DNA from: Turritopsis dohrnii
Taxonomy: Eukaryota > Cnidaria > Hydrozoa > Anthoathecata > Oceaniidae
NCBI GenBank assembly: GCA_027922465.2
Contig: BQMF02000642.1
Coordinates: forward strand, 1-64,000
Length of the DNA stretch: 64,000 bases
Direction of reading: 5' to 3'
A program made the position numbers and the translations under genes. Under the pieces are notes generated by a model. That model did no database searches and was not told the origin of the DNA. It saw only the letters and a list, made by a program, of their open reading frames with translations. Numbering within the stretch: the first letter of the stretch is position 1; each line of letters begins with the position of its first letter. This document shows, one piece after another, positions 7,700 through 52,819 of the stretch.

Positions 7700-7735
7700 G
7701 AGCTGACTGCTCTGCTTGTACTTCTGGCTGGTGTC

Positions 7736-7984: not shown

Positions 7985-7985
7985 T

Positions 7986-9685: not shown

Positions 9686-9858
9686 TACTCGTGCAACCAG
9701 ATCCAGACTATTTGATGCGGTTTGACCAGGCGAAAGATTTTGAACAATTTCAGGCCATTGGAGGGGTTTTGCATACGCATGTCAAGCGAATTAGCAGCTT
9801 CGATAATATACAGTTGGCTAAACATAGGCACTTGGTTTTCATTAGCATGCAGTGCTCC

Positions 9859-14054: not shown

Positions 14055-14083
14055 TGTTTTTAAATTTCGCGCTTTCGTTTTTT

Positions 14084-14215
14084 CAACCCGGTGTTGACCC
14101 GGTGTAGGACTCCAAAGTCCTGATTTCCCGGGATATTATGACTTCAAGAGTCGTAATTTCCCGGGAAATTTAGATCAAAGCGGGAAATTAAGACTCGAAA
14201 TTAAAATCATTTCGA
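14084..14215. repeat. Left inverted-repeat border of the ~31.8-kb insert
   Basis: After CCCGGTGT (14096-14103) come AGGACTCCAAAGTCC, GTCGTAATTTCCCGGGAAAT and GCGGGAAATTAAGACTCG. Read in reverse complement, 45853-45931 gives CCCGGTGT, GGTCTTAAATTCCCGGTAAA and GAGGGAAATTAGGACTCG in the same order. So the two borders are imperfect inverted repeats about 31.7 kb apart. The outermost base cannot be fixed, since CAACCCGG/GAACCCGG outside CCCGGTGT is also mirrored. Confidence 0.65.
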
Positions 14216-14329
14216 AAGGCAGATAACTCCTAAATTCCCGGTTAAAAATGACTTCACTAATTAAAGAAGAAGTCCTTCCATTGCAAAAAAAACTTAGTCC
14301 TCACAACTCACTCCACCAGCTTTGTGACT

Positions 14330-15123
14330 TTCGAAGGTGATGTGTCGACATTGTTATTATATAACGTATACATTTATTTTGTTCCTTTTGTGTTTCTATT
14401 TCTCATAGGTAATGAAGTAGAAAGTTTAAATGATTGCACGCGTTCCGTTTTGAAAAGTTCCATTTTATTAATAAGGAACGATTTCGCAGGCCCTCTTGAG
14501 ACCTTTTCAGTTATTTATTTCTTAATGGCATTTTTTAAGACAAAGGGGTCTTTGTAGAACCGATATCTTATGTCTTAAACGGTCTTCACCGTTCCGTATT
14601 CTATTAAAACCAACTGAATATGGAAAGACCTCATTGTTCCGCTGCGCACTGCTTATTTTGTAACATTTTCATACAATCTTTATTAAACTAAATCATTTGT
14701 ATAAAACACCGAATGCCTTTGAAAGTCATTAAAGTTATTTTGCAGACCTGTTTATTTCAGTCCATTAGAGACTGCACGCTTATCATTAAAAATGCCAAAT
14801 CGGATTGGCCAATACACCTTTCCCGTAATTGATTGCACAATACTTTTTACCATACTCCGCCTCGTTTTCGCAAAGGTTGATATGGTAACAGAATGGCACG
14901 GGACTCATTTCAGTAATGAGCAATTAGTGTAATGATTGTGATAGTGTTAATGATTGAGCACGGGAGATTCGGTTGTCATGGTATAGCATATTGAAAACGA
15001 GGTAGAGCATGATAAAAATATTGTGCAATCAATTAAGGGAAAGGTGTATAGCCACGTGACTTAATTTCGTAACCTAGCGTATAAAAGGATCGCTTTGATC
15101 CATTTCATTACTTATCGACAGAG
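14330..15123 (+). promoter_or_regulatory. Promoter region of YR-Myb copy A
   Basis: Shares with copies B and C the run: ATAACGTATAC..TTTGTTCC, a GTTCC-GGAAC palindrome (14457-14479), ACGGTCTTC.CCGTTC, GCACGCTTATCATT, a CCAAT box in reverse (GATTGGC at 14803) and a TATA box (TATAAAAG, 15080-15087) only 37 bp before the ATG. A TA-type MITE (14815-15047) sits between the CCAAT and TATA boxes in copy A alone, which moves the two apart by ~235 bp. Confidence 0.7.
14815..15047. mobile_element. TA-flanked MITE in the YR-Myb A promoter
   Basis: Ends CACCTTTCCCGTAATTGATT and AATCAATTAAGGGAAAGGTG are inverted, flanked by TA at 14813 and 15048. Copies B and C show the uninterrupted site (GATTGGCT.. to CACGTGAC in C). 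TA duplication suggests a Tc1/mariner-type mover. Same family as 4888-5102. Confidence 0.88.
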
Positions 15124-16860
15124 ATGTCGGCAAAACGAGTACTATCGACGAAGAGGTGGCAGAAGGCTGTTGGTAGTGACAAAAGACCTAGACGATTGGT
15201 TTTAAAACCTAACAACGAAGGATCATACGCTTGTCCAGTTATTTCATGCGAAAGTGAGCACTTTAAAACCCAAAGAGGCTGTAGAAAGCATGTATTTACG
15301 AAGCATGGTTGGTATTACTTTTTCGACGAGAAGCCTGACGTCACGACTGTGTTTCCTGAATTGGCTACTCGTTTATCCAATCGTGAAAAAGGAAAACGTA
15401 ACTCTACTACTTCCATGCCTACGTTTGCAAAGACGTGCACTATTGGAAAATCCTTTTCAAAATGGCTTCAAAGTCCAGGTGAAGGGGGAAAAAGTTTGAG
15501 TCAGGCCGAGCAAATTGCAGCTAAATTATTGAAGTATGCCAAGTTTTGTTGTGCAGACGTATCTGTTCTATGGGATGTACCGGAATGCATTGTAGACTAC
15601 TGCATTGGTTCACTAACAATGCTGTCCGATTTTGTGGATCACTTGAAGGACATTTGGAAATTGGGAAATTCGGGAATTATTGGTTATATGAACGCAATAA
15701 CTCATACGCTTGATTTCAGGAGAAGTAATGCCATAAAAGCCGAGAACATACCAATATTTATCGCGGCTGAAATATATCTGGATAGGGTGAAGAAATGTTT
15801 AGCAAAACAAATGCGGATTGAATGGAATACAGTGTTGAGTATGGAATATCTTACGAGCATCAACTGTTGGGCGACTATCGAGGACATGCAAAAGGTAATT
15901 CCATTTCATGCCGACAAGTTTTCCCAAATACTCCTCAATGCAAGCAGTGCAGCAACGATTATTCCAGCACACGATTTGTCGTTTTGTACTTCTTTCGTCG
16001 TAGCCGTACTATTTTTGTTGGTTAAGGCAAGTCGGCCTATGACATATCAGTATCTGACAGTGACCATGGTTAGCCAACTAGGACATGAAGGTGGCATTAT
16101 CGATCAGACCAAATTCAAAACGAATTATAAGTACGGATTTGACACTCTCATAATTACAAAAAGAGTTGTTGACATTCTAAATAGATACATCGCTTGTATA
16201 AAGACCAGATTAAATCCACATTGTGACTACTTGTTTATATCGAAGAACGGATCGCAGTTGAAACAAATAACCGATGTATTTGGCAGAATCGTTTATCAAG
16301 CGATCAGAAAATACATAAATCCAACACGATACAGACAGATTATAGAAACGGAGAGTTTATCTAACCTGAACGAGCAAGAGCAGGCGATTTTATCTCGTGA
16401 TCAAAAGCATACTTCTCACGTAGCTCGAATACACTACCAAAAACTTCAATCAGGCGAATTTGCACGTCAAGGGCAACGATGTATGGAAAAGCTGATAGCG
16501 GCCGGTAAGCCAAGCGTTTCTTCGTCAAGCGAAAGTTTCAACGATCATTTTACGATAACCACTGGCAATGAATCTCGCGAAAGTGCAACCAATCAAACTG
16601 ATGCAAATCGCATCGTTCATTTGTCTGTCAATACTAAATCCGCACAACTTACATCGTCCGAAGAACGTATGGACATCACGACGAAGAGGCAAAGCAAGGT
16701 TTCGTTTTCGTCTACAGAAGATTCATTTCTTTCAAATGGTATCAGGAAATACGGTCCCGGTAAATGGACAGCGATTTTGCGTGATCCAGAATATAGCTTT
16801 CACCTTTCTCGAAAACCAAGTACGTTGATGATCAGAGCAAAAACGATAAAGTTGATTTGA
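15124..16860 (+). CDS. YR-Myb protein, copy A: C2H2 finger, tyrosine-recombinase-like core, telobox-like Myb (open)
   Basis: 578 codons, no breaks; the ATG follows a TATA box by 37 bp and aligns with the starts of B and C. Residues 37-61 are a C2H2 finger (C37-x4-C42-x13-H56-x4-H61). Residues ~100-455 look like a tyrosine recombinase: R304 in KASRPMTYQYLTV (first arginine), R402/R404 in NPTRYRQIIETE (second), H429 in RDQKHTSHVARIHYQ and Y438 as nucleophile nine residues later. Residues 524-578 are Myb-like with the plan of telomere-binding Mybs (TEDSFLSNGIRKYGPGKWTA, ILRDPEYSF). A Ser/Thr-rich linker joins core and Myb. Such a core would cut and rejoin DNA through Tyr438; the function is inferred from residues only. 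The family resembles Crypton/DIRS-like recombinases but the finger-YR-Myb order is not one I know. It could also be a domesticated DNA-binding protein. Confidence 0.8.
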   Translation: MSAKRVLSTKRWQKAVGSDKRPRRLVLKPNNEGSYACPVISCESEHFKTQRGCRKHVFTKHGWYYFFDEKPDVTTVFPELATRLSNREKGKRNSTTSMPTFAKTCTIGKSFSKWLQSPGEGGKSLSQAEQIAAKLLKYAKFCCADVSVLWDVPECIVDYCIGSLTMLSDFVDHLKDIWKLGNSGIIGYMNAITHTLDFRRSNAIKAENIPIFIAAEIYLDRVKKCLAKQMRIEWNTVLSMEYLTSINCWATIEDMQKVIPFHADKFSQILLNASSAATIIPAHDLSFCTSFVVAVLFLLVKASRPMTYQYLTVTMVSQLGHEGGIIDQTKFKTNYKYGFDTLIITKRVVDILNRYIACIKTRLNPHCDYLFISKNGSQLKQITDVFGRIVYQAIRKYINPTRYRQIIETESLSNLNEQEQAILSRDQKHTSHVARIHYQKLQSGEFARQGQRCMEKLIAAGKPSVSSSSESFNDHFTITTGNESRESATNQTDANRIVHLSVNTKSAQLTSSEERMDITTKRQSKVSFSSTEDSFLSNGIRKYGPGKWTAILRDPEYSFHLSRKPSTLMIRAKTIKLI

Positions 16861-16958
16861 TTTCTATCTCTCCATACAAGATGTTACATCTATCTACTAT
16901 ATCTGAACCATACACGAGCTAGAGATTTCTTTTGAACGTTTACCTTGCAACAGTGAAG

Positions 16959-17264
16959 ATGTTCTTCAAGTTTAAAAAGTGCGTCTGGAATGAATGTGAC
17001 GATATCGTGTCGAAGCACAAGCTTACAGAATATGAAAAGGACAGTCTAAAGTGTATCATGAACAGTCATAATCTCAAACCAGGTATCTCATTCAAATTTT
17101 CGGAGATATCTAGTGATGTTGGAATAATGGCGAAGTTTGTAATGTTAAGACGAACAAAAAATCGGAAACTTCTATTACACGCTGACACCAGATATGTAAT
17201 ATCCGTGAAGCTACAAAAAGCAAACTGTACGAATAATATGAAAAGAAATACACGTCTGCAGTGA
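16959..17264 (+). CDS. Small conserved MFFKF protein, copy A (unknown)
   Basis: 101 codons from MFFKFKKCVWNE. No known domain is recognised. Across the three copies the pattern is MFFKF..C, a charged helix with L..(E/K) repeats, KP...F.(F/Y).E, then MAK followed by a basic hydrophobic stretch and LH.D. It lies about 100 bp after the YR-Myb stop on the same strand, so the two may share a transcript. The start was set at MFFKF because that is where all copies begin to agree; nine codons upstream (MNVYLATVK) are not shared. It is basic, so a nucleic-acid partner is possible. Confidence 0.7.
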   Translation: MFFKFKKCVWNECDDIVSKHKLTEYEKDSLKCIMNSHNLKPGISFKFSEISSDVGIMAKFVMLRRTKNRKLLLHADTRYVISVKLQKANCTNNMKRNTRLQ

Positions 17265-17409
17265 ATCTTTCTTTGTATTCCTGACCCGACTTGAAAACTT
17301 CTTCTGACGACTGACGTTCTATGCTTCAACACTTGTTACAAAATGTCACACATTGTTACATTACGTCACACCTAGTTACATGTTGTTGAAAGCATCGGCA
17401 AAGGAGGGT

Positions 17410-18245
17410 GTTGAGAATACAATAGCTATACCTTCTAGTTCCCTTAAACTGCTTCCTTATCCCCCCTATCCCCCTTGTCCCTCCTTGTCTCCCCTTGTTC
17501 CCTATTTCCATGGGAAAAAGTTTGCCTCCAAGTCGACTTAAGTCCGACTTAAAGCACTGCGAGCGCTTAGGTTTAAGTGTAAGTCGAGCACCTGACCACT
17601 TTTTCTCTCACGGAAATAGGGAACAAGGGGAGACAAGAAGGGACAAAGGGGGATAAGAGGGGATAACTCACACACGCCCTGTCCCTTTGTGCGCCATGTT
17701 GCACCCTCAATTGTTCACGCCCTTACGGTCTCAGCTTCCTTATCCACCCTTATCCCCCCTTGTCCCTCCTTGTCCCTCCTTGTCTCCCCTTGTTCCCTAT
17801 TTCCATGGGAAAGAAAGTTGCCTCCAAGTCGACTTAAGTCCGACTTAAAGCACTGCGAGCGCTTAGCTTTAAGTGTAAGTCAAGCACCTGACCACTTTTT
17901 CTCTCACGGAAATAGGGAACAAGGGGAGACAAGAAGGGACAAGGGGAATAAGGGGGGATAACTCACACACTCCCTATCCCGTTGTGCGCCATGTTGCGCC
18001 CTCAATAGTTTACGCCCTTACGGTCTCAACTTTCTTATCCCCCCTTGTCCCTCCTTGTCTCCCCTTTTTCCATATTTCCATGGGAAAGAAAGTTGCCTCC
18101 AAGTCGACTTAAGTCTGGCTTAAAGCACTGTGAGCACTTAGGTTAAATTCTAAGTCAAGCACGAGACCACTTTTTCTCTCATGGAAATAGGGAACAAGGG
18201 GAGACAAGGTGGGACAAGGTGGGATAAGGCGGGATAAAGAGACAT
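17410..18245. repeat. Cassette A satellite: ~285-bp units with inverted C-rich/G-rich arms
   Basis: Units start near 17448, 17728 and 18015. Each has a C-rich arm (CCTTGTCTCCCCTTGTTCCC, TATTTCC), a middle with AAGTCGACTTAAGTC, and a G-rich arm (GGAAATAGGGAACAAGGGG, AGACAAG) which is the reverse complement of the first, so every unit can fold as a hairpin. It lies between the convergent MFFKF and YDAW genes. Confidence 0.88.
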
Positions 18246-18317
18246 TTCAAGGGAACAAGGACACTTAATTCGAGAATAAAGGAATTTGGCGAGATGAACG
18301 AGGCAGATTTTTGTGCG

Positions 18318-19089
18318 TTATGCTTCGTCTTCGCTAATAACGATCGTTTCTTCTATGGCTTTACTTTGAAACTTTTTGATAGGTTTCACGTCTTCTTCCT
18401 CATCTTCGTCGTCACTGATGACTATTGTGTATGTTGGTAACATCCGAACAACAAATGGTTTTCTTTCCAGTATGCAGTCATCCGGATTTTCTATTGGCAC
18501 AAATAGGTCAGTGTCGTTGGAAGAATTTCCCGTAAAATCTATCTCGGTTTCTTCTTGGTGGCTTGCTCTGATCCTTTCTTCCCCTGGAAAACGGTGTTTA
18601 AAAACACATTTCCTAAAAATCTTTCTTTCATTACCATTTATACAAAGCCATGCATCATACAGAGAATCGGATCCGGACCAGCCAACGGTTTTGCGCATTT
18701 CAAATACCTTCAGCACCTTATCATCCAGGTTGGGCGCCAATGTACGCCATTGCAGCATCAGTTGCAGCACGTTTTCCATGTAATGTACGTCATGCGTTTG
18801 ATGCACAAAATCCACATGATCGTTTTCACTTGCCAACACTTCGTATAAATTTTCGTTGCATGGCCGTGAAGCACGAAATGAATGCTACCACGTTTTCTTG
18901 TTCGCTTAAAAATGAGTTGATTTGTTGTCTCTGTGCCCATATGCTTTTAAGAGAATACCCAGCTGGCCAAAGCACTCGAACAGCACACACGTTGTACTTG
19001 GCGGCGACGGGTGTAGCAAGATAAGCTTTTAAAGCGTTCTTCAACGTCTTGTTTTTTAAACATTTTCTGATTTTGTAGTTTGAAGGCAT
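18318..19089 (-). pseudogene. YDAW/SIM protein, copy A (one frameshift)
   Basis: Starts MPSNYKIRKCLKNKTLKNAL at 19089. The first frame ends near 18826 but the conserved reading goes on in the next frame (NLYEVLASENDHVDFVH), so one frameshift near 18850 splits it. The core is KTVGWSGSDSLYDAWLCING, shared by copies B and D. DLFVPIENPDDCILE then precedes an acidic tail with TIVISDDEDEEED and, at the very end, TIVISEDEA. Those two are good matches to SUMO-interaction motifs (hydrophobic core plus acidic flank). Function unknown; it converges on YR-Myb A across the satellite. An alternative to a frameshift is a tiny intron, but no clear splice sites were seen. Confidence 0.65.
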
Positions 19090-19147
19090 GCTCTCATTCC
19101 TCAATCTTTACACAATTACTTCGAGAAAAGGAACATATTTGTTCTTA

Positions 19148-19596
19148 AGCGGGGTTTACACTATCAGATTCTGTCTGACAGATTCTGTCGAACGATTTTT
19201 CTCATTAATTATTCATGACAGATTTTTGCGTTTACATTTGCATTTTTATGTCGAAAATATTTATTTGTGGAATGGCGCCTTTCAAGAAAAAACGTGTTGC
19301 TGCAGCTATTGCTATTGTTATAAAACTCAACACGTCTTTTATAAAACGTGCGTGCTTGTAAATTCCTAGAAACTTCACATCATTAATATTTAATGAGCCG
19401 AAACTGTAACTTCATTGGCTGATTTACTTTCGACAGAATCTGAAAAGTTGAAAAAATTCAACTTTTCAGATTCTGTCGAAAGGTGAATCTTTCGACAAAA
19501 AAAAACTTTCGATTTTCTGTTTACACTATAAGATTCTGTCGAATCGACAGAATCGACAGAATCTGTCAGACAGAATCTGATAGTGTAAACTCCGCT
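19148..19596. mobile_element. TTA-flanked MITE between cassettes A and B
   Basis: TIRs begin AGCGGGGTTTACACTATCAG and end CTGATAGTGTAAACTCCGCT, with further inverted CAGATTCTGTCTGACAGATT. Flanked by TTA at 19145 and 19597. The empty site is preserved in cassette C (TTTTTTCTTATACGGTTATG at 25677), so the insertion point is exact. A 3-bp TTA duplication fits the PIF/Harbinger type. Confidence 0.92.
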
Positions 19597-19599
19597 TTA

Positions 19600-20136
19600 T
19601 ACGGTTATCTATCGTATACATTTTTTTGTTCCTTTGTGTATCTAATTTTTAGAATCATTCAAGTATAAAATAATACTAAAAGTGCGTGTTCCTGTTTGTA
19701 AAAGTTCCTTTTTATTTAAAAGGAACATTTCATGAGGCTCACTTGAGACTCTTTACATTATTGATGTGTTAATAATTCCCTTAATGACAAAGCGGTCGTT
19801 GGAAGACCGACAATTTATATGGTAAAAGGTCTTTCTTGTTCTGTAACTATTAAGATCTCGTTTAAAGAAAAGGACGACTCTGTTCCTTCACAGATTGGCC
19901 AATATGTTCCCTTTAAATAGTTCTTTATCAAGTAAAAGAGATTGTTCAAAATACAGAACCTTAATGAAGAGGTAAAAACTTTGTTTTGCAGACCTGCCTA
20001 AGGCAGTCCGTTACGGCCCGCACGATTGTCATTAGGAATCTTAGATGTGATTGGCTGGTATATTTTAATGTAGTGTCACTGAATTATCACATAAAAAGAG
20101 GATCGTGTTAGTCACAAATATCAGTAATCGACTGAC
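19600..20136. promoter_or_regulatory. Bidirectional promoter region of cassette B
   Basis: Lies between the start of YDAW/SIM copy A (minus) and YR-Myb B (plus). Contains the palindrome GTTCC..GGAAC (19704-19726) with a perfect GTTCCTTTT/AAAAGGAAC core, GATTGGCTGG (CCAAT reversed, 20049) and CATAAAAAG (TATA-like, 20089) 40 bp before the ATG. The motif order matches promoters A and C. Confidence 0.65.
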
Positions 20137-21858
20137 ATGTCGCAGAGACGAATTTTATCGAAGAAAAAGTGGCAAAAGGCTGTGGGAAGTAATAAAAAGC
20201 CGAGAAGATTGGTTTTAAGACCGAACGCTGATAGTGTTTATGTTTGTCCTGTGAAAGTGTGTGAAAGTGAACATTTTAAGACACAGAGAGGTTGCAGAAA
20301 GCACGTTTTCACAAAACATGGTTGGTTTTACTTTTTCGACGAAAAACCAGATGTTAATACGATATTTCCTGAATTAGCAACTCGCTTGTCAACAGAAGGG
20401 AAGAAAAAGAGGTGTTGCACTGCTTCGATGCCGATGTTTCTAAAGACCTGTACTGTTGGACGGTTATTTAGCAGATGGCTGCAAAGCCCAGGTGGAGGAG
20501 CCAAATGTCATTCTCAAGCAGAACAATTAACAGCAAAAGTCTTAAAGTATGCGAAATATTGTTGTGACGATGTCTCGACCGCCTGGGACGTACCGAAATG
20601 TGTGATAGACTATTGCGTTGGATGCGTTACTTTGCTCTCGGATTTCGATGACTACTTGCAGAACACATGGAACGTTGGCCGTCCCGGAATTATCGGCTAC
20701 ATGCACGCAATATCTCACATGCTGGATTACAGAAGAAGCAATGGCATTAATGCTGAAAATATACCCGTATTCATTGCCGCAGAGATCTACTTGGATAGGG
20801 TAAAGAAATGCTTAGCAAAGAAAATGAGAATAGAATGGAATACAGTGTTGAGTATGGAATATGTTACGAGTATCAACTGTTGGGCGACCCTAGAAGATAT
20901 GCAAAAACGTCATTCCATTTCATGCCGAAAAGTTTTCGCAGATCATTCTTAATGCTAGTCACGGAACAGCAATTATTCCTGCACACGATTTATCGTTTTG
21001 TACTTCCTTTGTAGTTGCCGTGCTTTTCTTAATGGTAAAGGCGAGTCGTCCTATGACCTATCAGTACTTAACAGTGGCAATGGTACGTGAACTGGGATGC
21101 GGAGGTGGCATTATCGACCAGACCAGATTTAAGACAAATTACAAGTACGGATTTGACACTCTCATAATAACAAAACGGGTCGTTGGCATTCTAAATGGAT
21201 ACACAGCTTGTATAAGGACTGGATTAAATCCAGTTCGCGACTATTTGCTAATAACAAAGAATGGTACGCAATTGAAGCAATTAACTGACGTATTTGGCAG
21301 AATTCTATACCAGGCCATAGGAAAGCACATTAATCCAACCCGATACAGGCAGATTATCGAAACAGAAGGTTTATCCAAACTTACCGAAAGTGAACAAGCG
21401 GCTCTATCTCGCGATCAAAAACATACGTCGCACGTAGCTCGAATACACTATCAAAAGCTTCAATCAGCCGAAGTTGCACGTCAATGCAACAGTGTATGGA
21501 AAAATTGCTGGGGTTACCAAACGACGGTTTGAACGAACATTTGACAGTATCGACAATCAACGAATCGCACAATAGAGTTGACGATCAAAGCATTGAATTT
21601 CAAAGTTTGGCCGTACATTCTCGTGGTGATGTTACAACGAGAAAGCAGAAACCAACAGAAGGACGCATTGAAACCGTTTCAAAACGACAGAGCAAGGTTT
21701 CTTTTTCGTCTAAAGAAGATTCGTTTCTATCGTACGGCATCAAGAAACACGGAATTGGTAAATGGACGGCAATATTGCGAGATCCAGAGTACAGCTTTCA
21801 TTCTTCACGGAAGCCGAGTACATTGATGATTAGAGCCAAGACGATAAGGTTGATTTGA
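20137..21858 (+). pseudogene. YR-Myb protein, copy B (two compensating frameshifts)
   Basis: Starts MSQRRILSKKKWQKAVGSNK and follows copy A throughout. A 1-nt insertion after EDMQK (near 20908) shifts the frame; a 1-nt loss after EVARQ (near 21486) restores it. Between them the +1 frame keeps the whole catalytic stretch: KASRPMTYQYLTV, PTRYRQIIETEG and KHTSHVARIHYQ. The finger (CPVKVCESEHF..H..H) and the Myb (EDSFLSYGIKKHGIGKWTAI) are in the original frame. So all conserved parts survive but not in one frame. Such a +1/-1 pair could be real decay, assembly error or, less likely, programmed shifting. Confidence 0.8.
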
Positions 21859-21947
21859 TTTTCATTGTTGGCATTTATTGATTTATTAACCATGTAAGAA
21901 ATTGAAGCAAGAGGTTTTTGGTCCTTTTCGTTTCTGCTAGAGGTAAC

Positions 21948-22256
21948 ATGTTCTTCAAATTCAAGAGGTGTACGTACACCAAAGACCTGCAAATAACATC
22001 AAAACACAGCTTAAACGAGCACGAGAAGGATGTTTTAAAAGACATGATAAAGACACACGAACTAAAGCCTGGCATCACGTTTAGATTTACCGAATTGGAA
22101 AATTGTACGGGTATAATGGCGAAACTGTCAATGCTAAGAAAGCAAGACTGTCTTAAGCTGTTTTTACATAGAGACACAACATTTATGATTGTCATTAGAT
22201 CAAGGCAAAACAGTTGTAGAAAATTATTTGGAAACAAATACAAAGATAGTACGTAA
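21948..22256 (+). CDS. Small conserved MFFKF protein, copy B (unknown)
   Basis: 102 codons from MFFKFKRCTYTKDLQ, open to the stop. It shares with copy A the opening MFFKFK.C, a KH.L.E.EKD.LK block, LKPGI.F.F.E and GIMAK..MLR, with LFLHRDT near the end. Roughly half of the residues match copy A. The frame stays open although the recombinase gene upstream in the same cassette is broken, which hints at selection on the small protein. The distance after the YR-Myb stop (~90 bp) is the same as in A and C. Confidence 0.7.
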   Translation: MFFKFKRCTYTKDLQITSKHSLNEHEKDVLKDMIKTHELKPGITFRFTELENCTGIMAKLSMLRKQDCLKLFLHRDTTFMIVIRSRQNSCRKLFGNKYKDST

Positions 22257-22379
22257 ACAAGGACTAATTAAAATCCCCATTGCCCCACCTTCCATCTCCA
22301 ATAATATTGTCTTCTACTCTCAAGCTTGTCATTCTTCCTTTGTGAGAAAGACTCTATTGGCTTTCAAATCATTTGATTT

Positions 22380-24720
22380 TACTTACATGTAGTTACACCT
22401 TCTTACATCTAGTTACATGTTGTTACAGTTCCAGAGAAAGGAAAAGTTCAATCTAGGTCACTTCTTTTACTGACGTCATTTGACTCCCGAATCAGCTGAT
22501 ATTAGTTACAGGCAGTTACACCTTGTTACATCTAGTTACATGTTGTTACAGTTCCACACAAAGGAAAAGTTCAATCTACGTCACTTCTTCTACTGACGTC
22601 ATTTGACTCCCGAATCAGCTGATATTAGTTACACGTAGTTACACCTTGTTACATCTAGTTACATGTTGTTACAGTTCCACACAAAGGAAAAGTTCAATCT
22701 ACGTCACTTCTTCTACTGACGTCATTTGACTCCCGAATCAGCTGATATTAGTTACACGTAGTTACACCTTGTTACATCTAGTTACATGTTGTTACAGTTC
22801 CACACAAAGGAAAAGTTCAATCTACGTCACTTCTTCTACTGACGTCATTTGACTCCCGAATCAGCTGATATTAGTTACACGTAGTTACACCTTGTTACAT
22901 CTAGTTACATGTTGTTACAGTTCCACACAAAGGAAAAGTTCAATCTACGTCACTTCTTCTACTGACGTCATTTGACTCCCGAATCAGCTGATATTAGTTA
23001 CATGTAGTTACACCTTGTTACATCTAGTTACATGTTGTTACAGTTCCAGAGAAAGGAAAAGTTCAATCTACGTCACTTCTTTTACTGACGTCATTTGACT
23101 CCAGAATCAGCTGATATTAGTTACAGGCAGTTACACCTTGTTACATCTAGTTACATGTTGTTACAGTTCCACACAAAGGAAAAGTTCAATCTACGTCACT
23201 TCTTCTACTGACGTCATTTGACTCCCGAATCAGCTGATATTAGTTACACGTAGTTACACCTTGTTACATCTAGTTACATGTTGTTACAGTTCTAAAGAAT
23301 GGAAAAGTTCAATCTACGTCACTTCTTTTACTGACGTCATTTGACTCCAGAATCAGCTGATATTAGTTACAGGCAGTTACACCTTGTTACATCTAGTTAC
23401 ATGTTGTTACAGTTCCACACAAAGGAAAAGTTCAATCTACATCACTTCTTCTACTGACGTCATTTGACTCCCGAATCAGCTGATATTAGTTACACGTAGT
23501 TACACCTTGTTACATCTAGTTACATCTTGTTACAGTTCTACAGAATGGAAAAGTTCAATCTACGTCACTTCTTCTACTGACGTCATTTGACTCCCGAATC
23601 AGCTGATATTAGTTACACGTAGTTACACCTTGTTACATTTAGTTACATCTTGTTACATGCTTTTGACCAATAAAGCATAGAATTGCGTCATTCCCGGCTA
23701 TGTCGTCATTTGCGAGATCTCAGCTGACCTTTGCATCAGCTAACAATCCAGTGTTGCAATGACGTCAAAGTGAAAGGGCGCAGGGCGTCACTTTCTCCCT
23801 CAGCACTTGTAACAAGGTGTAACAAGGTGTAACAATATGTAACAACGTGTAACTAGAAACAGCTGACAATCCGATGTTGCAATGACGTCACAGAAAGTGA
23901 CGTAATGCGTCACTTTACTCTCTCAGAACTTGTAACAAGGTGTAACAACATGTAACAACGTGTAACAACGTGTAACTAGAAACAGCTGACAATCCGATGT
24001 TGCAATGACGTCACAGAAAGTGACGTAATGCGTCACTTTTCTTCCTCAGAACTTGTAACAAGGTGTAACAAGGTGTAACAACATGTAACAACGTGTAACT
24101 AGAAACAGCTGACAATCCGATGTTGCAATGACGTCACAGAAAGTGACGTAATGCGTCACTTTACTCTCTCAGAACTTGTAACAAGGTGCAACAACATGTA
24201 ACAACGTGTAACAACGTGTAACTAGAAACAGCTGATAATCCGATGTTGCAATGACGTCACAGAAAGTGACGTAATGCGTCACTTTACTCTCTCAGAACTT
24301 GTAACAAGGTGTAACAACATGTAACAGCGTGTAACAACGTGTAACTAGAAACAGCTGACAATCCGATGTTGCAATGACGTCACAGAAAGTGACGTAATGC
24401 GTCACTTTTCTCTCTCAGAACTTGTAACAAGGTGTAACAAGGTGTAACAACATGTAACAACGTGTAACTAGAAACAGCTGACAATCCGATGTTGCAATGA
24501 CGTCACAGAAAGTGACGTAATGCGTCACTTTTCTCTCTCAGAACTTGTAACAAGGTGTAACAACATGTAACAACGTGTAACAACGTGTAACTAGAAACAG
24601 CTGACAATCCGATGTTGCAATGACGTCACAGAAAGTGACGTAATGCGTCACTTTACTCTCTCAGAACTTGTAACAAGGTGTAACAACATGTAACAACGTG
24701 TAACAACGTGTAACTATTTG
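22380..24720. repeat. Cassette B satellite: 123-bp units inverted around ~23.7 kb
   Basis: From 22380 to about 23660 a 123-bp unit repeats some ten times: CAGTTCCACACAAAGGAAAA, TTCTACTGACGTCATTTGAC, GAATCAGCTGATATTAG and four or five GTTACA words. From about 23740 to 24720 a ~122-bp unit with TGTAAC words, CAATGACGTCACAGAAAGTG and AACAGCTGAC runs the other way. Both halves share TGACGTCA (CRE-type palindrome), CAGCTG (E-box) and the GTTACAYNTNGTTACA pattern, in opposite orientation. Confidence 0.92.
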
Positions 24721-24864
24721 CGACATGTAAGTGAAATCAGCTGATATTTCAAGTGATGTCTATAGCAACGGGAATTTTTCCAAATGTAAGGGCGTGTAGA
24801 CATAACTGTCGAATAGATGGGGCTGTTTTTAATGAAATTGAAACATAACACTAAACGTTTTTGT

Positions 24865-25630
24865 TTACTCTTCATCACTACTCATTACAGTAGTGTCTGT
24901 TACATTATTCACAGATGCGAAGCGCTGTAGAGTTTCGGTGCTCGGCTTGACGTCTTCACGCATCTCGTTTTGTTTCGATCGCTTCGGTGACAAATCGTTA
25001 CCGTCACCACACAACTTACGTTTGGTTGCCTCTACGACTTCAATCGCTCCTTCGTCCGACGACAAAACTTCTGTAGTCCCGAAACATGCCTGGTATGCGC
25101 GCAACAATTCAGGTTGTATTTCGCACTCCTCGTCACTGCTGATGACAATAGCTTCAGCTGGTTTGCTACGAGCGACGAAACGTTCAAAAACGGGTTTCGT
25201 CTCCATCTCTTCTCCGCTATCGTTTTCCCTTTCACCGACATCGTAATCGTTTTCGCCACAGTTGTCGCCATCAGACGTACTTGCGTCAACCGTATCGATA
25301 AAAAACTCTCTAAACTGGGCCATTGGGAACCAGCTTCGTTCCATGGCATTCAGGCACAACCATGCGTCGTAAACTGAATCAGCGCCCACCCATCCCGAGC
25401 GATGTCGCATGAGAAATGCTTTTCTCGTGGTTGCGCTGATCGGTACGTCGCAAAGGTTTCCCTTCACCAGATCGTATACTTTTTGTTGGTATTGCTCATC
25501 TGGAACGACCGATTCGCAGTCGAAATCCGGCGTATTTTAAAGCGAATGGAGACACAATAAAACTACGTAACGCCCTTTTTAAAGGCTCTTCTCGCAAAGA
25601 AAGATTACCTTTAAAACTAGCAGTATCCAT
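24865..25630 (-). pseudogene. YDAW/SIM protein, copy B
   Basis: Begins MDTASFKGNLSLREEPLKRA at 25630, then ALRSFIVSPFALKYAGFRL, parallel to the start of copies A and D. The rest is one frame over (DEQYQQKVYDLVKGNLCDV) and lacks ~80 residues found in copy A. The core is RSGWVGADSVYDAWLCLN, followed by an acidic Ser-rich region with three SIM-like motifs: AIVISSDEECE, TEVLSSDEGA and TTVMSSDEE as the last residues. A basic patch KRKLCGDGNDLSPKRSKQ could be a nuclear signal. The part from 25467 down to 24865 is a clean 200-codon frame, so a shorter product starting at MKGNLCDV is possible. Confidence 0.65.
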
Positions 25631-25639
25631 TTTTGTTCC

Positions 25640-26222
25640 TTCTTTTAGATGTTTTATGTACAGTGAGAGGAACACATTTTTTCTTATACGGTTATGTAAC
25701 GTATAACTTTTTTTGTTCCTTTGTGCGAGTAAATTTGAGAAGCAATGGAGTATGTAATCTTTATCTTTTGCACGTGTTCCTATTTCATAAGTTCCTTTTA
25801 TAATCAAAGGAACATTTTCTGAGGCACTCTTGGGACCTCTAAAGTTTTTATCAGTTTCACGATGTTTTATAGAAGAGAAAAGTCCTTGCAAGACCGATGT
25901 GTAATATCATAAACGGTCTACGTTGTTCTGTTTTCTAATGCATTTCAGCATAATTGAAAAGACAACTTTGTTCTGTAACGTACTAGCTGACGCGTTCCCT
26001 ATTGTCCACTCATTATTAAGATCAAGTATTTGGTTAAAATACAGAATGTCGGTGGAACTCCCTGTAAAGACCAAATCACAGACTGGCTTAACGAGGTCCA
26101 TGCATGACCGCACGCTTTTTATTGATATTCAAACACATGATTGGCTAAGATTCACGTGACTAACTATCAAAATTTAGCATAAATAGGACTGCGTTGGTGT
26201 TACAAATCACTTGTCGGCAGAG
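25640..26222. promoter_or_regulatory. Bidirectional promoter region of cassette C
   Basis: Between YDAW/SIM copy B and YR-Myb C. Has CTTATACGGTTATGTAACG, GCACGTGTTCC, the palindrome GTTCCTTTTATAATCAAAGG (25791-25813), ACGGTCTACGTTGTTC, GATTGGCTAAG and a TATA-like GCATAAATAG at 26178. No MITE interrupts it, so it serves as the empty-site reference for both promoter insertions upstream. Confidence 0.65.
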
Positions 26223-27950
26223 ATGCCGCACAGACGTATCTTATCAAAAGTTATATGGCAGAAGGCTGTTGGAAACCACAAGAAACCTAAACGATTAAAC
26301 CTTAGACCAAACAGCGATGGTTTGTTCGTATGCCCAGTTAAGTCATGTGAGACTGAAAGCTTCAAGACAATGAGGGGATGTAGAAAGCACGTTTTCAATA
26401 AACATGGTTGGTTTTATTTTTTTGAAGAAAAGCCTGATATTGACACGGTATTTCCTGAATTATGTACTCGCTTATCCTTGCAACAGACTAAGAAGAGAAG
26501 TTGCACCACTTCGATGCCCATGTTCGTCAAAACTTGCAGTATTGCAACCATATTCACAAGATGGCTACAAAGTCCAGGTGGAGGAGGTAAAAGTTTATGT
26601 CAAGCCGAACAAATAACAACGAAAGTAATGAAGTATGCGAAATTTTGTTGTACTGACATTCCTGCAGTGTGGAATTTACCAGAATGTGTTTTAGACTATT
26701 GTATTGGGTCGGTAGCCCTTCTATCGGACTTTGTGGACTACTTAAAAGACACTTGGAAAATTGGTCGATCTGGGATAATCGGTTATATGAACGCTATATC
26801 TCACACACTGGATTTTTGAAGAAGTACTGCCATTAAGTCAGAAAACATACCTGTTTTTATTGCAGCCGAGATTTATTTGGATAGAGTAAAAAAATGTTTA
26901 GCTAAGCAAATGAGGATAGAATGGAGTACGGTATTAAGTATGGAATATTTTACGAGCATAAATTGCTGGGCAACACTTGAAGACATGCAAAATGTGATTC
27001 CATTTCATGCTGAAAAGTTTTCACAGATTTTGCTTAATGCTAGTAACGGGACTGCAATCATCCCCGCTCACGATTTATCGGTCTGTACATCTTTTGTCGT
27101 GACCGTCTTATTCTTGATGGTCAAAGGCAGTCGCCCTATGACTTATCAATATCTAACTGTTACGATGATACGAGAGGTTGGGCCCGAAGGTGGAATTGTC
27201 GATCAGAATAAATTCAAGACAAATTACAAGTATGGATTTGACACACTTATAATTTCTAAAAGAGTTATCGACATCTTAAATGGATACATAACTTGTGTCA
27301 GGACTCGTTTGAATCCAATTTGCGATTATCTATTAATATCGAAAAATGGAACACAACTTAAGCAGTTGACCGACGTGTTTGGCAGAATTGTTTTCCAAGC
27401 TATCGGAAAGTACGTTAATCCTACACGGTATCGGCAAATTATCGAGACAGAAGGTTTGTCAAAACTCAGCGAACGCGAACAAGCGGCTTTATCTCGTGAT
27501 CAAAAGCATACCTCGCATGTAGCTAGAATACACTATCAAAAACTTCAATCAGCCGATGTAGCACGTCAAGGACGACAGTGCATTGAAAAAATGCTAACCA
27601 CGGACAAGGAATGTACAGAAGGCAGTCATTGTAACGATCATTTTGTCGTATCAAGTTCCAAGGAATTCCCGAAAAATGTCGTCCACGAAAAGACTGAACG
27701 TGAAACAGAAATGTTAAATTCTCGTCTCCGCATCTCATTAAACAACGAAGGAAAAACGGTCGATACAAATACCAAACGACACACCAAGGTTTCGTTTTCG
27801 TCTGCAGAGGATTCGTTTTTGTCGTATGGTATCAAAAAGTACGGTGCCGGAAAGTGGACAGCAATTTTGCGGGATCCAGAATATTGTTTTCATCCGTCAA
27901 GAAAAGCTAGCACGCTAATGGTTAGAGCAAAAACAATCAACTTGATATAA
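26223..27950 (+). pseudogene. YR-Myb protein, copy C (one in-frame stop)
   Basis: Start placed at MPHRRILSKVIWQKAVGNHK, which aligns with the starts of A and B; four extra codons upstream (MSAE) are not shared. The finger is CPVKSCETESFKTMRGCRKH. A single TGA at 26817-26819 replaces an arginine codon after HTLDF (copy A has AGG there). Everything beyond it is open: KGSRPMTYQYLTV, NPTRYRQIIETEG, KHTSHVARIHYQ, and a Myb with EDSFLSYGIKKYGAGKWTAI. One nonsense change therefore separates this copy from a full product. Initiation downstream could still give a protein with the core and Myb only. Confidence 0.8.
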
Positions 27951-28050
27951 GGACATGACATCATTCTGAAGAGAGGCCCAACTGAAATTCATAAATGCAT
28001 CGCAATAGGTTAAGAGTTCTCTTTTGGGTGTCGAATAAAGTTGAAGCAAC

Positions 28051-28356
28051 ATGTTCTTCAAGTTTTATACGTGCAAACTTACGACAGACGGGGAAATACA
28101 CTCCAGAAAGGTATTGGACTCAAAGAAAATGGAGTGTCTTAAGCAAATGCTGGAATCACGGAATGTAAAAGGACCTACAAGATTTAAATATGCTGAACTG
28201 ACGAATTGTGAAAAGGGTTTAATGGCAAAAATTACAATAATCCGCAACAGTCAAAAAGCAAGAGTGATTTTACATAGAGACTTAAAGTACCTAACTGTCA
28301 TTAGTAAAAAACCTACATGTAGGTCAAGTTATACAAGAAATTCCATAATAACCTAA
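28051..28356 (+). CDS. Small conserved MFFKF protein, copy C (unknown)
   Basis: 101 codons, starting MFFKFYTCKLTTDGE. Shares with A and B the start, LKQML, (G/S)...F(K)Y.EL, MAKITII and ILHRD. It is the most diverged of the three, yet it is open and the same length. It starts about 100 bp after the YR-Myb C stop. Role unknown; the three-way conservation of length and motif order is the only functional evidence. Confidence 0.68.
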   Translation: MFFKFYTCKLTTDGEIHSRKVLDSKKMECLKQMLESRNVKGPTRFKYAELTNCEKGLMAKITIIRNSQKARVILHRDLKYLTVISKKPTCRSSYTRNSIIT

Positions 28357-28374
28357 TATACACTTGTATTGGAT

Positions 28375-29880
28375 TTCCCTCAACTCCTGTCTCATCTCCC
28401 CTTACCTCCCCTTGCCCCCTCTTACCTCCCCTTGTTCCCTCTTACCTCCCCTTGTTCCCTCTTTCAGAATAGAAAACATATGTGTCAGGTGGAACTCTTG
28501 TGCAAAGTGGTTGGAGGTTAAAGTTTCGGTTACGATTGGGGTCATGGTTATGGTTAACTTGACCACAATTCTTATCCCCTCTTATCCCCCCTTACCTCCC
28601 CTTGTCTCCTCTTACCTCCCCTTGTTCCCTATTTCAGAATAGAAAACATATGTGTCAGGTGAGACTCATAGACCCCCTATCGGTAGAGGGCGTGACCCTT
28701 TTCTATACTGAAACAGTGAACAAGGGGAAACAAGAAGGGGAAAGGGGATGCAAGAGGGCATAGGAGGGGATAAGAATGATGGTCATGTAAACCTTAATCC
28801 TGATCACACCCATAACCGAAACCTTAACCTCAAACCTGTTGGTGCTGGACCAACATTCTTATCCACCCTTACCTCCCCTTGCCCCCTCTTGTCTTCCCTT
28901 GTTCCCTCTTTCAGTAGAGAAAACATTAGTGTCAGGTGAGACTCATAGACCCCCTATCGGTATAGGGCGTGACCCTTTTCTATACTGAAACAGGGAACAA
29001 GGGGAGACAAGAAGGGGCAAGGGGAGGCAAGAGGGTATAAGGGGGATAAGAATGATGGTGCAGTAAACCTTAACCCTGACCACACCCATAACCGAAACCT
29101 TAACCTCAAACCTATTGGTGCTGGACCAACATTCTTATCCACCCTTACCTCCCCTTGCCCCCTCTTGTCTCCCCTTGTTCCCTCTTTCAGTAGAGAAAAC
29201 ATTAGTGTCAGGTGAGACTCATAGACCCCCTATCGGTATAGGGCGTGACCCTTTTCTATACTGAAACAGGGAACAAGGGGAGACAAGAAGGGGCAAGGGG
29301 AGGCAAGAGGGTATAAGGGGGGATTGCATTGTATTCAATTTATTTAACGTTGACATAGTAAGATAGTACAAAATATACTAATTAAAGTCAACTGAATAAG
29401 AATGATGGTCATGTAAACCTTAACCCTGACCACACCCATAACCGAAACCTTAACCTCAAACCTATTGGTGCTGGACCAACATTTTTATCCACCCTTACCT
29501 CCCCTTGCCCCCTCTTGTCTCCCCTTGTTCCCTCTTTCAGTAGAGAAAACATTAGTGTCAGGTGCGACTCATGGACCCCCTATCGGTAGAGGGCGTGGCC
29601 CTTTTCTATTCTGAAAGAAGGAACAAGGGGAGACAAGAAGGGGCAAGGGGAGGTAAGGGGGGTTAAGAGGGGATAAGTATGTTGGTCAAGTTAACCATAA
29701 CCGTGACCCTAATCGTAACCGAAACTTTAACCTGCAACCACTTTTTTACTTGAGTTCCACCTGACACATATGTTTTTTATTCTGAAAGAGGGAACAAGGG
29801 GAGGTAAGAGGGGGCAAGGGGAGGCAAGAGTGGATAAGAGGGGATAAGAATGTTGGTGCAGTAAACCGCAACCACTTTGG
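28375..29880. repeat. Cassette C satellite: ~275-bp units with inverted arms and telomere-like CCTTAACCC words
   Basis: Units recur near 28560, 28850, 29130 and 29485. Each has a C-rich arm (CCTTACCTCCCCTTGCCCCC, TCTTGTCTCCCCTTGTTCCC), GTCAGGTGAGACTCATAGAC, and the G-rich inverted arm, then a spacer AACCTTAACCCTGACCACAC, CCATAACCGAAACCTTAACC. The arm words match the cassette A satellite. A ~75-bp insertion with a LINE-tail-like AATAAATTGAATAC (reverse strand) interrupts one unit at 29325-29396. Confidence 0.9.
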
Positions 29881-29989
29881 ATATGCTTATTGTGAAGGTT
29901 TTTTTTAACGCAAATGTTTATTTGAAGGAAAGTTAGACTGGCTTTATATTTCGTCATAAATTCTTACAAGTTTTATTTATCTGAATAGG

Positions 29990-30477
29990 ATATGTTTTTA
30001 ATACACTATTGACGAATGTATTGCTTTCCAATATCGAATCATCAGGTTCTTTCTTTGGGACAAATAAATCGAAATCACCCAATCATCCAAAAAATCGATT
30101 TCGCTTTCTACACAATTAGATGCTATAGCATTTGTTTCCCAGTCCTCAAATCAGAGTGTCGAGACCTCTCATAACCTTTGATACAGAGCCAGGCATCGTA
30201 TAAATAGTTCGATCCACTCCAAGCAACGCTTTTTCGAATTTCATAAATTGTGGCACGTTATCATCGAGGTTATCCGCCAAGAAGCTTTATTCCAACAAAA
30301 AAACTGCGTTTATTTGCTGCCTCCGACATCAATAGCTTTTAATTCTTATTACACGTTTCTCATAGCAGCACACACACACGTTACTTTAGTGACAATCGCT
30401 GTAACAATATATGCTTTTAAACCTTTTTTAAAAGTCTTGTTTTTCATACTCTTTTGAACTTTGTATTCTGATGACAT
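29990..30477 (-). pseudogene. YDAW/SIM protein, copy D (degraded)
   Basis: The start MSSEYKVQKSMKNKTFKKGL at 30477 matches copy A. Lower down, VAWSGSNYLYDAWLCIKGYE and FDLFVPKKEPDDSILE match the core and pre-tail regions of copy A, but frames change and stops intervene, and the SIM tail is not found. This gene closes cassette C on the right exactly as copies A and B close theirs. Its promoter is cut by a LINE at about 30538, so no fourth YR-Myb follows. Confidence 0.75.
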
Positions 30478-30537
30478 TCTGCTATTTTATCAAACTTACT
30501 TTGAGAAACAGGAACATTTTTTTTCTTATACGATTAT

Positions 30538-32749
30538 ATGTTATTATTATTATTATTGTTATTATTATTATTTGGTAAAGGTCAGTAAAAAGCAGTTACA
30601 AACTGATGTGGACCTACTATATATAAACTAAAACTGAAAAACTAGAAATTATATATATAAACAATTAAAAACTGTATAAAATAAATAAAATGATAAAATA
30701 TCTTTTCAATTAATTTAAATTAAAATACAAATACATGATTTGTCAAAGAAATAGCATTTGAACCATTTGTTTGAAAGACCATGTACTATGGGGGGAATTA
30801 CACCAGATGAAAGGATTTAGAGAATGATATCGCAAAGCATTTGAATTACAGAAATAGCAGAAAATACGAGGGTGGAAAAACCACGATTTACGTCACAATC
30901 GGATTTTGGATTGAGATTAGAGGAAAGGACAAGGCGAGGAAACAAAAATAAATAAAAGGTGTAGTTGTTACTTTATATACATATAAGTAGATATAAAAAG
31001 TTTTAAATAATATAGATATAATATAGATAAAACCATCCTGGACATAACTATTGATGTCAGAAGCTTAGTTAGACAAAGTTAGACATGAAAAAGGTGTTGC
31101 AAACAAGATAACTGGCTGACTATTGTAAGGATTGAAGTCACAGTGAACTAAGAGGAAGGTAAGGGGAAGTCTAAGTTGGAAAGTTCCGCTGTTATATAAA
31201 TTTATAAATTTTTGTAGGTACTAATAGATAAGATCATCTAGAATAGTTTGATTTTTTGATACATGATTTTTGAAGGCTTCGTAATCCAACTGCTTGATGT
31301 GTTCAGGAAGTTTATTCCAAATTGACGAGCTACGGTATGTGAATGATGTTTTATATTTCATGAAATTGAAACGTCTTTTTTCAATTTGTAGGTTGTTTCT
31401 TAGATTTCGGGAAGTTGTTCTTTTCGTAATCAGCACTTTGTTTGGATCGTTTCTATGATATAGATTGTGCGTAATGCAGGCTGTTCGTCTTTTGCAGTAC
31501 CATGAAATTGAACGCCAGTTCGCTTTTTCTAAAACTTCATTATCAGCTGTGGTCTTTTTTATTCGCTGTACAAATCTAGCTGCCTTGATGTGGATAGAAT
31601 TGATTTTATGCATCTCATTACCAGGACAGCCACCCCATAAGATTCCTTTGAAGTAAATTTCTTTCAGGTGACTTTGATCCATGAATCTCATTTTGTATAG
31701 GTTTTGTAGCTTGAGTTTAAAGTTTTTCAGAATTTTCAAAGTATGTAGTTTCCATGATATCTTATCATCTATTGTAACACCAAGGTACTTGACACTCTTT
31801 GTTACATTTATTGCGTTGGTGCCAAGCTTGAATTCTGGAATAGGACCGATAAAGGGACTTTTAGAAATGAACATAATTTCAGTCTTTTCTACATCTGTGT
31901 GGATGGCAAATCCATTTTTGTCAGCCCATTTTTGTAATTGGTTTAAGATTTTCTGTACTTTTTGAAAAGCATCAGTACAATCATCGCATACTTCATGACA
32001 AGTGGAATCGTCAGCGAACATATCAGTCTCACCATCTTCAGCATTTTCAGGAAGATCGTTATGTCAATACTGAAAAGTTGCGGTCCTAACAAAGAACCTT
32101 GTGGCACACCATTTTCGACTTTTAATTTATCAGATTTGCAGTTATTCACAACTGTATATTGATGTCTTTCTGACAAGTAGGAGTCAAGAATTTCGTATAG
32201 ACTCCCTGATATTCCACATGCTTGAATCTTTTTTAATAGTGGTTGGTGTGGGACTACATCGAACGCTTTTTTGAAATCAATAAAGATACAAGCTACGACT
32301 TTTCTCTCGTCAATGGCCTTATGCCACTTTTCGGTCATGTTCAATAATATCGATTCAGTTGAACGACCTGATCGAAAACCCCATTGTCTTTCGCTGATTA
32401 GACAAAGGGAATCAAGGTGGGATTTCATTTGGTCAAGTATAACTTTTTCAAGTACTTTACTAGCTATACTCAGTAGCGTTATTGGTCTGTAGTTGTTGCA
32501 GTCAGACTTTAAACCTTTTTTGTGCAGGCAAGACACTCTTCCAACTTTCCAATCATTTGGGTAAACGGCTGGGGGTGTTGAGGGGGAGGGGGGTTCAGTT
32601 TTCGAGGGATCTGGGGAGCACTGACACTTCAATTTGAAATGGGATTTATCCAACCTTTTAACGTTTGTTGTTGTGGAGTTTTTAACAAATGGGGGAATAG
32701 TCTTGCAGTGGCATGACGACTTCAACAAAAATAAAAGTAAAGAATACAA
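30538..32749 (-). mobile_element. 5'-truncated L2/CR1-type LINE with (TAA)n 3' tail
   Basis: On the minus strand an RT-containing ORF is followed by ~650 bp of AT-rich 3' UTR and a (TAA)n-type microsatellite at 30538-30575, the usual end of L2/CR1 LINEs. The tail abuts CTTATACGATTATA, the cassette promoter motif beside YDAW copy D. So the LINE landed in what would have been promoter D. Confidence 0.75.
31221..32749 (-). pseudogene. LINE reverse transcriptase (partial, one frameshift)
   Basis: The first frame (31943-32749) has PNDWKVGRVSCLHKKGLKSD, NNYRPITLLSIASKVLEKVI, FRSGRSTESILLN, ACIFIDFKKAFDVVPH and VENGVPQGSLLGPQLFSI, RT motifs 1 to 4 including the first catalytic Asp (FIDFKKAFD). A shift near 32020 leads to the frame 31221-32021, which opens with MFADDST, the catalytic ADD box, and continues through VKYLGVTIDDKISW to a full C-terminus ending SSSIWNKLPEHIKQLDYEAF. 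The endonuclease part is missing. All catalytic residues are present, so decay is slight. Confidence 0.88.
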
Positions 32750-33478
32750 TTTATTTTATATTTTTCTTAAACTCTTTACTTTTTGTGAACAGCTTTGATT
32801 TTGTGAATGTGAAAGGGAGACAGAAAAGAGAAGGAAAAACAAAACACTTCATGATCAATATTTCTCGTTCTTATATGCATAAGTTCTTAAAAAATAGGCT
32901 CTTCAGAAGCAGAAAGAAGCACTAGGAAGTCAAACCAACAATAACAAGATGCCCCTACGGGCAGAAAGATTTCTGCAAAATCAGCTTAAGTGCGGAAAAC
33001 ACCAACTATGACATTCTTGAAATTTAAAGAAGATTGAACCATTTCCACAATATATGTTTATCAAATTTCTGACCATGTACTCCCCAAAAATCCGGAAAAA
33101 CATAATTGTCACCATGAAACACTTCATACAAATGAACACCAATAAACTTGAATACATTTGAATGACATAATTTTCTTTATTTTGTTGGTACGCAATGATA
33201 GTAAAGATAATACAATGAGTATGCATGTAATCCAATCTAAATGTTATGAATTTATGAATTCAATATATATATGTCTAGTCAATCTAACAGAATTCCTAAA
33301 TCACAAGCAAAAAGAGGACAACATAGATTTTGATCATGCAAAATGTATCCAGAAATACATACAAAATCAACATACATAACTGAAAACAGAAATTTGTGCT
33401 TCAATTTCTTTAACAATATGTCATTGCCACCTTTTTAATTTACAAACATGCGTTACCTGAACTAAATTTAATGAAAAG

Positions 33479-40320: not shown

Positions 40321-40339
40321 ATACAATAGCAAAATATGT

Positions 40340-40752: not shown

Positions 40753-40806
40753 TGGAATAACAAAAGACTTTTTAATGTTTATTGAGTTTGAAGCAATTAT
40801 ATCTAA

Positions 40807-52817: not shown

Positions 52818-52819
52818 TA

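Follow-up and report, generated by a model that had tools for sequence, protein, structure and literature searches.

Three related, ageing mobile elements, each with a predicted tyrosine recombinase–Myb gene, joined head to tail in the hydrozoan Turritopsis dohrnii

Prokaryotic integrases of the lambda and Tn916 kind act on core arms placed around a short overlap, have extra boxes inside the element end and insert in tandem at att sites, and the 2-micron plasmid (FLP/FRT, REP1, REP2, STB), which is free and has two FRT sites on each molecule, carries a repeat array, STB. Each FRT site consists of an 8-bp exchange region between 13-bp elements set head to head, and Flp is controlled by SUMO modification (accessible text of PMC6594588). 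Classes of tyrosine-recombinase elements comprise Cryptons and Tec on the DNA side and DIRS, PAT and Ngaro on the RNA side (excerpts of PMC3212892 and PMC4157794), the last three being RNA-type elements with a reverse transcriptase (PMC4157794, same excerpts). In the available portions of PMC3212892, Cryptons are hard to delimit, those first found in fungi have direct repeats of 4 or 6 bp, and animal Cryptons have neither terminal repeats nor a C-terminal domain. Here we describe a block at 14.36–30.53 kb of a 64,000-nucleotide stretch of Turritopsis dohrnii DNA (contig BQMF02000642.1, positions 1 to 64,000; the window) that is three related, ageing mobile elements joined head to tail (Table 1). 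Each of the three cassettes is very probably a copy of a DNA mobile element that is mobilized by a tyrosine recombinase and measures ~4.5–6 kb without foreign insertions.

All three cassettes share one order of parts: a TATA-like box, a tyrosine recombinase–Myb (YR-Myb) gene, the MFFKF gene, a satellite and a minus-strand gene, YDAW. Pairwise DNA identity is 70–73% over long aligned stretches, and sizes are nearly constant, with YR-Myb genes of 1722–1737 nt, MFFKF genes of 306–309 nt, a gap of 89–100 nt between the two, and a minus-strand ATG 55–60 nt inside the right terminus of each unit. The satellite interval is variable (1053, 2608 and ~1598 nt in cassettes 1, 2 and 3, the last measured to an estimated stop of the decayed YDAW gene). 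The TATA-like box lies 46–49 nt upstream of the YR-Myb ATG and scores 11.4, 6.6 and 7.8 bits in cassettes 1, 2 and 3 (shuffled best: mean 6.8 bits, 95% point 9.6); because two of these scores are below the shuffled 95% point and the box of cassette 2 scores below another site in its region, the common position is better evidence than the score. An earlier, sequence-only reading had placed this order at 14.3–19.1, 19.6–25.6 and 25.7–30.5 kb, with diverged coding parts, conserved order and spacing, and a minus-strand gene reading back towards the satellite. Each point is borne out, the last by a YDAW frame in every unit (a decayed remnant in element 3), but the right limit, given as 30477, has to be moved to 30532, where the terminus ends.

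The elements end in short inverted termini made up of CGTATA, ~10 bp and GTTCC. CGTATA-N8-12-GTTCC occurs five times in the 64 kb (0.05 expected), each time at a unit end and correctly oriented. Termini are intact at five of six ends, the sixth (right end of unit 1) being split by an insertion, and a fuzzy search with both termini at up to 4 edits returned the six ends only. At both internal junctions, TATACGGTTATCTATCGTATA and TATACGGTTATGTAACGTATA, the CGTATA arms stand face to face across 9 bp; allowing at most 1 mismatch, this pattern is found at the two unit junctions only in the whole window (0.08 expected). By analogy, the junction layout is that of a tyrosine-recombinase crossover site, and the GTTCC boxes, which repeat in register in all three left ends, are reminiscent of arm-type sites. 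The block is flanked on both sides by the 7-mer ATTATAT, in register with the inner 7-mers GTTATCT and GTTATGT; as ATTATAT has a frequency of ~1.8e-4 per position, its presence on both flanks is unlikely to be due to chance.

The large gene encodes a tyrosine recombinase, as judged from its predicted structure and from residues that at least 121 of 122 aligned proteins share. K332, R402 and Y438 are present in all 122 and R304 and H429 in 121, and the HxxR slot holds Asn (77 proteins), His (41), Ser (2) or Thr (2). The ten best Foldseek matches of the predicted model were Xer and Cre, which also headed the VIA-align list, where the absence of other families does not exclude them. A C2H2-like finger lies N-terminal and a TRF1-type Myb domain C-terminal of the recombinase; the Myb domain is of the TRF1/2 kind by both sequence and fold, and the top Pfam matches of the cassette frames were of Myb/SANT type, all under their cut-offs. 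The finger–recombinase–Myb composition read earlier from the sequence thus stands, with a predicted Xer/Cre fold and the R/K/R/H/Y set. The gene is present in every cassette, as had also been proposed, but whole in cassette 1 alone.

Between cassettes, YR-Myb is under strong purifying selection, with synonymous differences near saturation (pS 0.60–0.78) and few nonsynonymous ones (pN 0.08–0.17). From these values, the lineages of the three units were long selected for a working recombinase; the frameshifts, the in-frame stop and the unit 1 insertions are later events. Long selection followed by decay fits ageing mobile elements better than a host locus that was kept.

Several observations weigh against reading the cassettes as recombinase elements. 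The evidence comes from one array of three copies within the 64-kb window. The root-mean-square deviation of the Xer match is large (11.3 Å over 245 residues), and the predicted local distance difference test score (pLDDT) of the model falls below 50 at 332–336 and 430–438, the stretches with the Lys and the Tyr. Pfam recombinase models matched none of 25 family members at E ≤ 1, although distant members can escape such models. The matching arms are just 6–7 bp long, below the 11–13 bp, around 6–8 bp, that are usual for tyrosine-recombinase sites (general description in the accessible part of PMC3212892). The 7-mer match loses some of its force because the right flank is a TTA repeat, and the outer 7-mers depart from the inner ones at 2 of 7 positions; this exceeds the tolerance of a strict recombinase core and may be due to age. 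Finally, the three copies form one clade (support 1.0) in a recombinase tree of 123 sequences.

This last result would be expected if a single inserted element had been duplicated in tandem to give the array, as by unequal crossing-over, an origin that would still involve a tyrosine-recombinase transposon and that we consider somewhat unlikely. The shared orientation of the three copies also agrees with it. The single clade is weak evidence, since other copies in the host genome lie outside the 123 rows of the tree. Two family members read as lying on one 20,938-base contig, P0018 and P0041, are 66% identical, with P0041 closer to P0020 (82%) and P0018 outside the group of P0041, P0020, P0111, P0043 and P0034 (support 0.80), so unlike copies may sit together elsewhere too. 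Moreover, long separate evolution under selection for the recombinase, with synonymous sites near saturation, would be odd for neighbours left in place; the repeat unit stops exactly at the recombinase-type termini; and the satellite of copy 2 is of another kind than those of copies 1 and 3.

Derivation from an animal Crypton by addition of terminal repeats, a Myb domain and two further genes appears improbable. Cryptons are described animal DNA elements with a tyrosine recombinase, known in a cnidarian and proposed to move as circles (available text of PMC3212892), and in these respects resemble the elements here. In contrast to the Cryptons of that published description, the present elements have inverted ends, crossover-like junctions and a 7-bp flanking repeat, an N-terminal finger and a C-terminal TRF-type Myb domain, two extra genes, an inverted satellite and a head-to-tail arrangement; both the terminal inverted repeats and the C-terminal domain that Cryptons are said to lack are found here. 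None of the 25 members matched DUF3504 or phage-integrase models in Pfam, which is still compatible with a distant relation. DIRS, PAT and Ngaro share with the array a tyrosine recombinase in animal mobile DNA. Eight stop-to-stop frames of at least 150 aa lie inside 14363–30532, all of them YR-Myb or YDAW, and among these eight there is neither a reverse transcriptase, as expected of DIRS or Ngaro, nor a DDE transposase, as expected of transposons with terminal inverted repeats. We rate the elements as a new, superfamily-level variant of tyrosine-recombinase DNA transposons, set apart from Cryptons by the published description. The recombinase fold and residues, inverted ends, crossover-like junctions and 7-bp flanking repeat agree with the earlier proposal of a new class of such elements. 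Its further statement that no described element has this set also held in a literature search, most subscription papers being outside its scope (the accessible portions of PMC12477816 and PMC3537659 contain no description of such an element); an existing repeat-catalogue entry for the family is possible.

The sequence-only reading had also offered a domesticated locus, under which the array would be a tandem gene family retained because it serves the host. The recombinase is under strong purifying selection and MFFKF under weaker selection, and order and spacing are fixed, observations that could be read in this way. However, the YR-Myb gene is broken in two of three copies and YDAW decayed in the third, copy 1 has insertions in its upstream region and in a terminus, inverted ends and a flanking repeat are present, and the recombinase family forms large database clusters, all of which leaves domestication very improbable. 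An endogenous small circular DNA virus is hardly credible: such viruses are about as large and likewise have two transcription units that converge on repeats, but the cassettes contain no further open frame of at least 150 aa, leaving no room for an obvious capsid gene, and a scan of IMG/VR confirmed no relative among 17 pattern hits of the YR alignment and 130 of the YDAW alignment.

Returning to the tyrosine-recombinase elements, their MFFKF proteins (101–102 aa, beginning MFFKF) are 31–48% identical between units, with 23 invariant residues. The pN/pS-type ratio between units is 0.34–0.50 for MFFKF and 0.54 for YDAW, rough values because pS is 0.65–0.91. A protein search with the element-1 MFFKF copy only gave no candidate with three common words, Pfam returned no match for the three MFFKF proteins, and the structure predicted from the three sequences has a mean pLDDT of 51.6.

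The minus-strand gene carries YDAWLC and acidic-hydrophobic motifs. Of 930 candidates returned by a search with its alignment, two are homologues: P0121 (E = 2.9e-21) and P0122 (E = 4.4e-15). Homology starts at residue 86 of P0121 and the N-terminal part differs; because the N-terminus of the homologues is unlike the right-end open reading frame (ORF), the latter may be another exon or another gene. Motifs such as TIVISDDED and IVISSDEEC, which resemble SUMO-interaction motifs (SIMs), occur in all four YDAW proteins examined and in 0–0.55% of 2000 shuffles of each, under a definition drawn up after viewing the sequences. The YDAW/SIM gene of the earlier reading keeps its SIM-like motifs, but its cassette 3 copy is badly decayed and the right-end ORF is not the N-terminus of the homologues. 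Inspection of the YDAW region by eye showed neither a slippery site nor a common splice donor that was consistent across copies. The contigs of the two homologues (65,428 and 5,035 bases) match none of the 120 YR contigs listed in length, a result of little weight given 615 further unlisted YR hits. A minus-strand TATA in the left ends, driving the minus-strand genes across joined ends, was considered and is not claimed, since it scored well in element 3 only.

The satellites occupy the same place in each unit, between converging 3′ ends, and are inverted arrays, as first read from the sequence, whose motifs are mostly phased at 10 bp. Cassette 2 has GTTACA 53 times on the plus strand (22392–23652) and then 39 times on the minus strand (23813–24714), unmixed, and in cassettes 1 and 3 the orientations alternate by cluster inside 275–276-bp monomers. 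The short GTTACA cluster after MFFKF in unit 1 links the two satellite types. Self-match peaks at lag 10 in unit 1 (0.38) and in both arrays of unit 2 (0.47; means 0.26–0.28), while unit 3 gives 0.36 at lag 20 and 0.35 at lag 10 (mean 0.29), relative to its own spread no stronger than two coding controls. Counting both strands, TGACGTCA, presumably a CRE-type site, occurs 36 times in unit 2 (0.5 expected). Such phased inverted arrays suggest cooperative protein binding. A candidate role of the satellites as telomere-type sites was not supported, AACCCT not being enriched (0, 0 and 3 occurrences vs 2.3, 1.7 and 3.9 expected). The 64 Rfam matches to microRNA families on 14000–31500 were set aside as hairpin artefacts, because the listed bit scores were all under the gathering score and the rows lay on inverted satellites or on the insertion near 19420–19490. 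Further along the window, 50211–55735 holds several tandem arrays that have periods of 47, 58–62, 94 and 123 and a common GACGTC core, often in the form AAGACGTCTT; the 123-bp period and the ACGTC core recall the element 2 satellite.

From the fixed order and spacing in three units, each with its own ends, we infer that the parts work together. In the mechanism we propose, the most likely binding sites of the YR-Myb protein are the CGTATA arms at both ends, perhaps together with the inner GTTCC boxes. The ends would be joined into a circle with the junction TATACG-9 bp-CGTATA, which would recombine with an AT-rich target carrying a similar 7-bp core and leave the core on both sides, the exact bonds cut being putative. 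Joined ends of elements already in place would form sites of this kind, so that more circles could insert next to them, and a head-to-tail array would build up by accretion. MFFKF and YDAW/SIM would act as helper proteins, and the phased inverted satellite as a protein-docking array for replication, retention or expression. The minus-strand gene would draw its promoter from the left end of the next unit in a circle or array; with its ATG so close to the terminus, expression could depend on the formation of either.

The 2-micron plasmid is the nearest functional analogue of these elements rather than a known relative. Both have a tyrosine recombinase, small partner proteins (here with SIM-like motifs in YDAW) and a repeat locus, but the elements here are chromosomal and have one site per unit, the crossover pattern being found at the two unit junctions only and not as two inverted sites per unit. 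Prokaryotic integrases resemble them in arms and overlap, inner boxes and tandem insertion, and differ in lacking the eukaryote-type Myb domain; a search of 50,697 phage records gave no match, and the 45 pattern hits of the YR alignment in prokaryote contigs all went unconfirmed. A more tentative and rather doubtful extension would make the family a nuclear plasmid-like animal element: an integrating circle with recombinase, maintenance proteins and phased docking array, following the 2-micron plan from an independent origin, holding to chromosomes through telomere-type Myb and SUMO contacts and parking head to tail. If the family holds up elsewhere, its members would have ends that can be defined and a crossover site that can be read, together with several genes and a cis array, so that integration would be directly testable in cells. 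It would also provide an independent comparison with the 2-micron plasmid for the persistence of selfish DNA in nuclei, a mobile TRF-type Myb domain, and element-borne arrays as a way to seed satellite DNA. Since ~60% of repeats are unclassified in two Hydractinia genomes (accessible text of PMC11067881), such families could be common yet unnamed.

Table 1 Features of the array, in window positions
Feature	Position	Strand	Remark
Element 1 (cassette 1)	14363..19603	+	from termini; two foreign insertions included
Element 2 (cassette 2)	19611..25690	+	from termini and junctions
Element 3 (cassette 3)	25698..30532	+	from termini
Left flanking 7-mer ATTATAT	14356..14362	.	
Right flanking 7-mer ATTATAT	30533..30539	.	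continues into TTA repeat
Left terminus, element 1	14365..14385	+	CGTATA-N10-GTTCC
Left terminus, element 2	19613..19632	+	
Left terminus, element 3	25700..25719	+	
Right terminus, element 1	19129..19603	-	split by insertion 19147-19597
Right terminus, element 2	25669..25690	-	
Right terminus, element 3	30511..30532	-	
Junction, elements 1/2	19598..19618	.	TATACG-N9-CGTATA
Junction, elements 2/3	25685..25705	.	TATACG-N9-CGTATA
YR-Myb gene, element 1	15124..16860	+	intact, 578 aa
YR-Myb gene, element 2	20137..21858	+	frameshifted
YR-Myb gene, element 3	26223..27950	+	in-frame stop 26817-26819
MFFKF gene, element 1	16959..17264	+	
MFFKF gene, element 2	21948..22256	+	
MFFKF gene, element 3	28051..28356	+	
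Satellite, element 1	17453..18237	.	275-bp monomers; short GTTACA cluster before it, 17335-17380
Satellite, element 2	22367..24716	.	123-bp monomers; forward array 22367-23657, inverted array 23737-24716
Satellite, element 3	28396..29860	.	276-bp monomers, internal inversions
YDAW/SIM reading frame, element 1	18318..18884	-	
YDAW/SIM reading frame, element 2	24865..25536	-	
YDAW remnant, element 3	29955..30254	-	decayed, limits approximate
Right-end ORF (MPSNYK...), element 1	18829..19089	-	possible first exon or separate gene
Right-end ORF (MDTASF...), element 2	25499..25630	-	weak similarity
Right-end ORF (MSSEYK...), element 3	30352..30477	-	51% identity to element 1 ORF, 37 aa

Two foreign insertions, both with inverted ends, lie in cassette 1. 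The one at 14813–15048, upstream of the recombinase gene, is 236 bp long with inverted ends of ~40 bp (TACACCTTTCCC...) and has no counterpart in elements 2 and 3; the other, at 19147–19597, is ~450 bp long with long inverted ends (GGGGTTTACACTATCAGATTCTGTC) and interrupts the right terminus of element 1.

By eye, the window looks like animal DNA in which transposon remnants surround the array. On the minus strand, open frames at 6717–9781 look like a broken Helitron helicase/Rep protein, and fragments like the reverse transcriptase and endonuclease of long interspersed nuclear elements adjoin the array and lie past it (31221–32755 and 40150–43125), both again judged by eye. A near-identical 47–51-bp unit (AACGGTTTCAAAGTATTCCTTGCTTACGCAGGAATAC) is present in two tandem copies each at 139–235 and 3254–3358, perhaps marking where some longer repeat ends. 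Two arrays, ~600 bp from each other at 41576–41681 and 42284–42388, are built from a 15-bp unit present as GGACAATTGCCCCCC and as its reverse complement.

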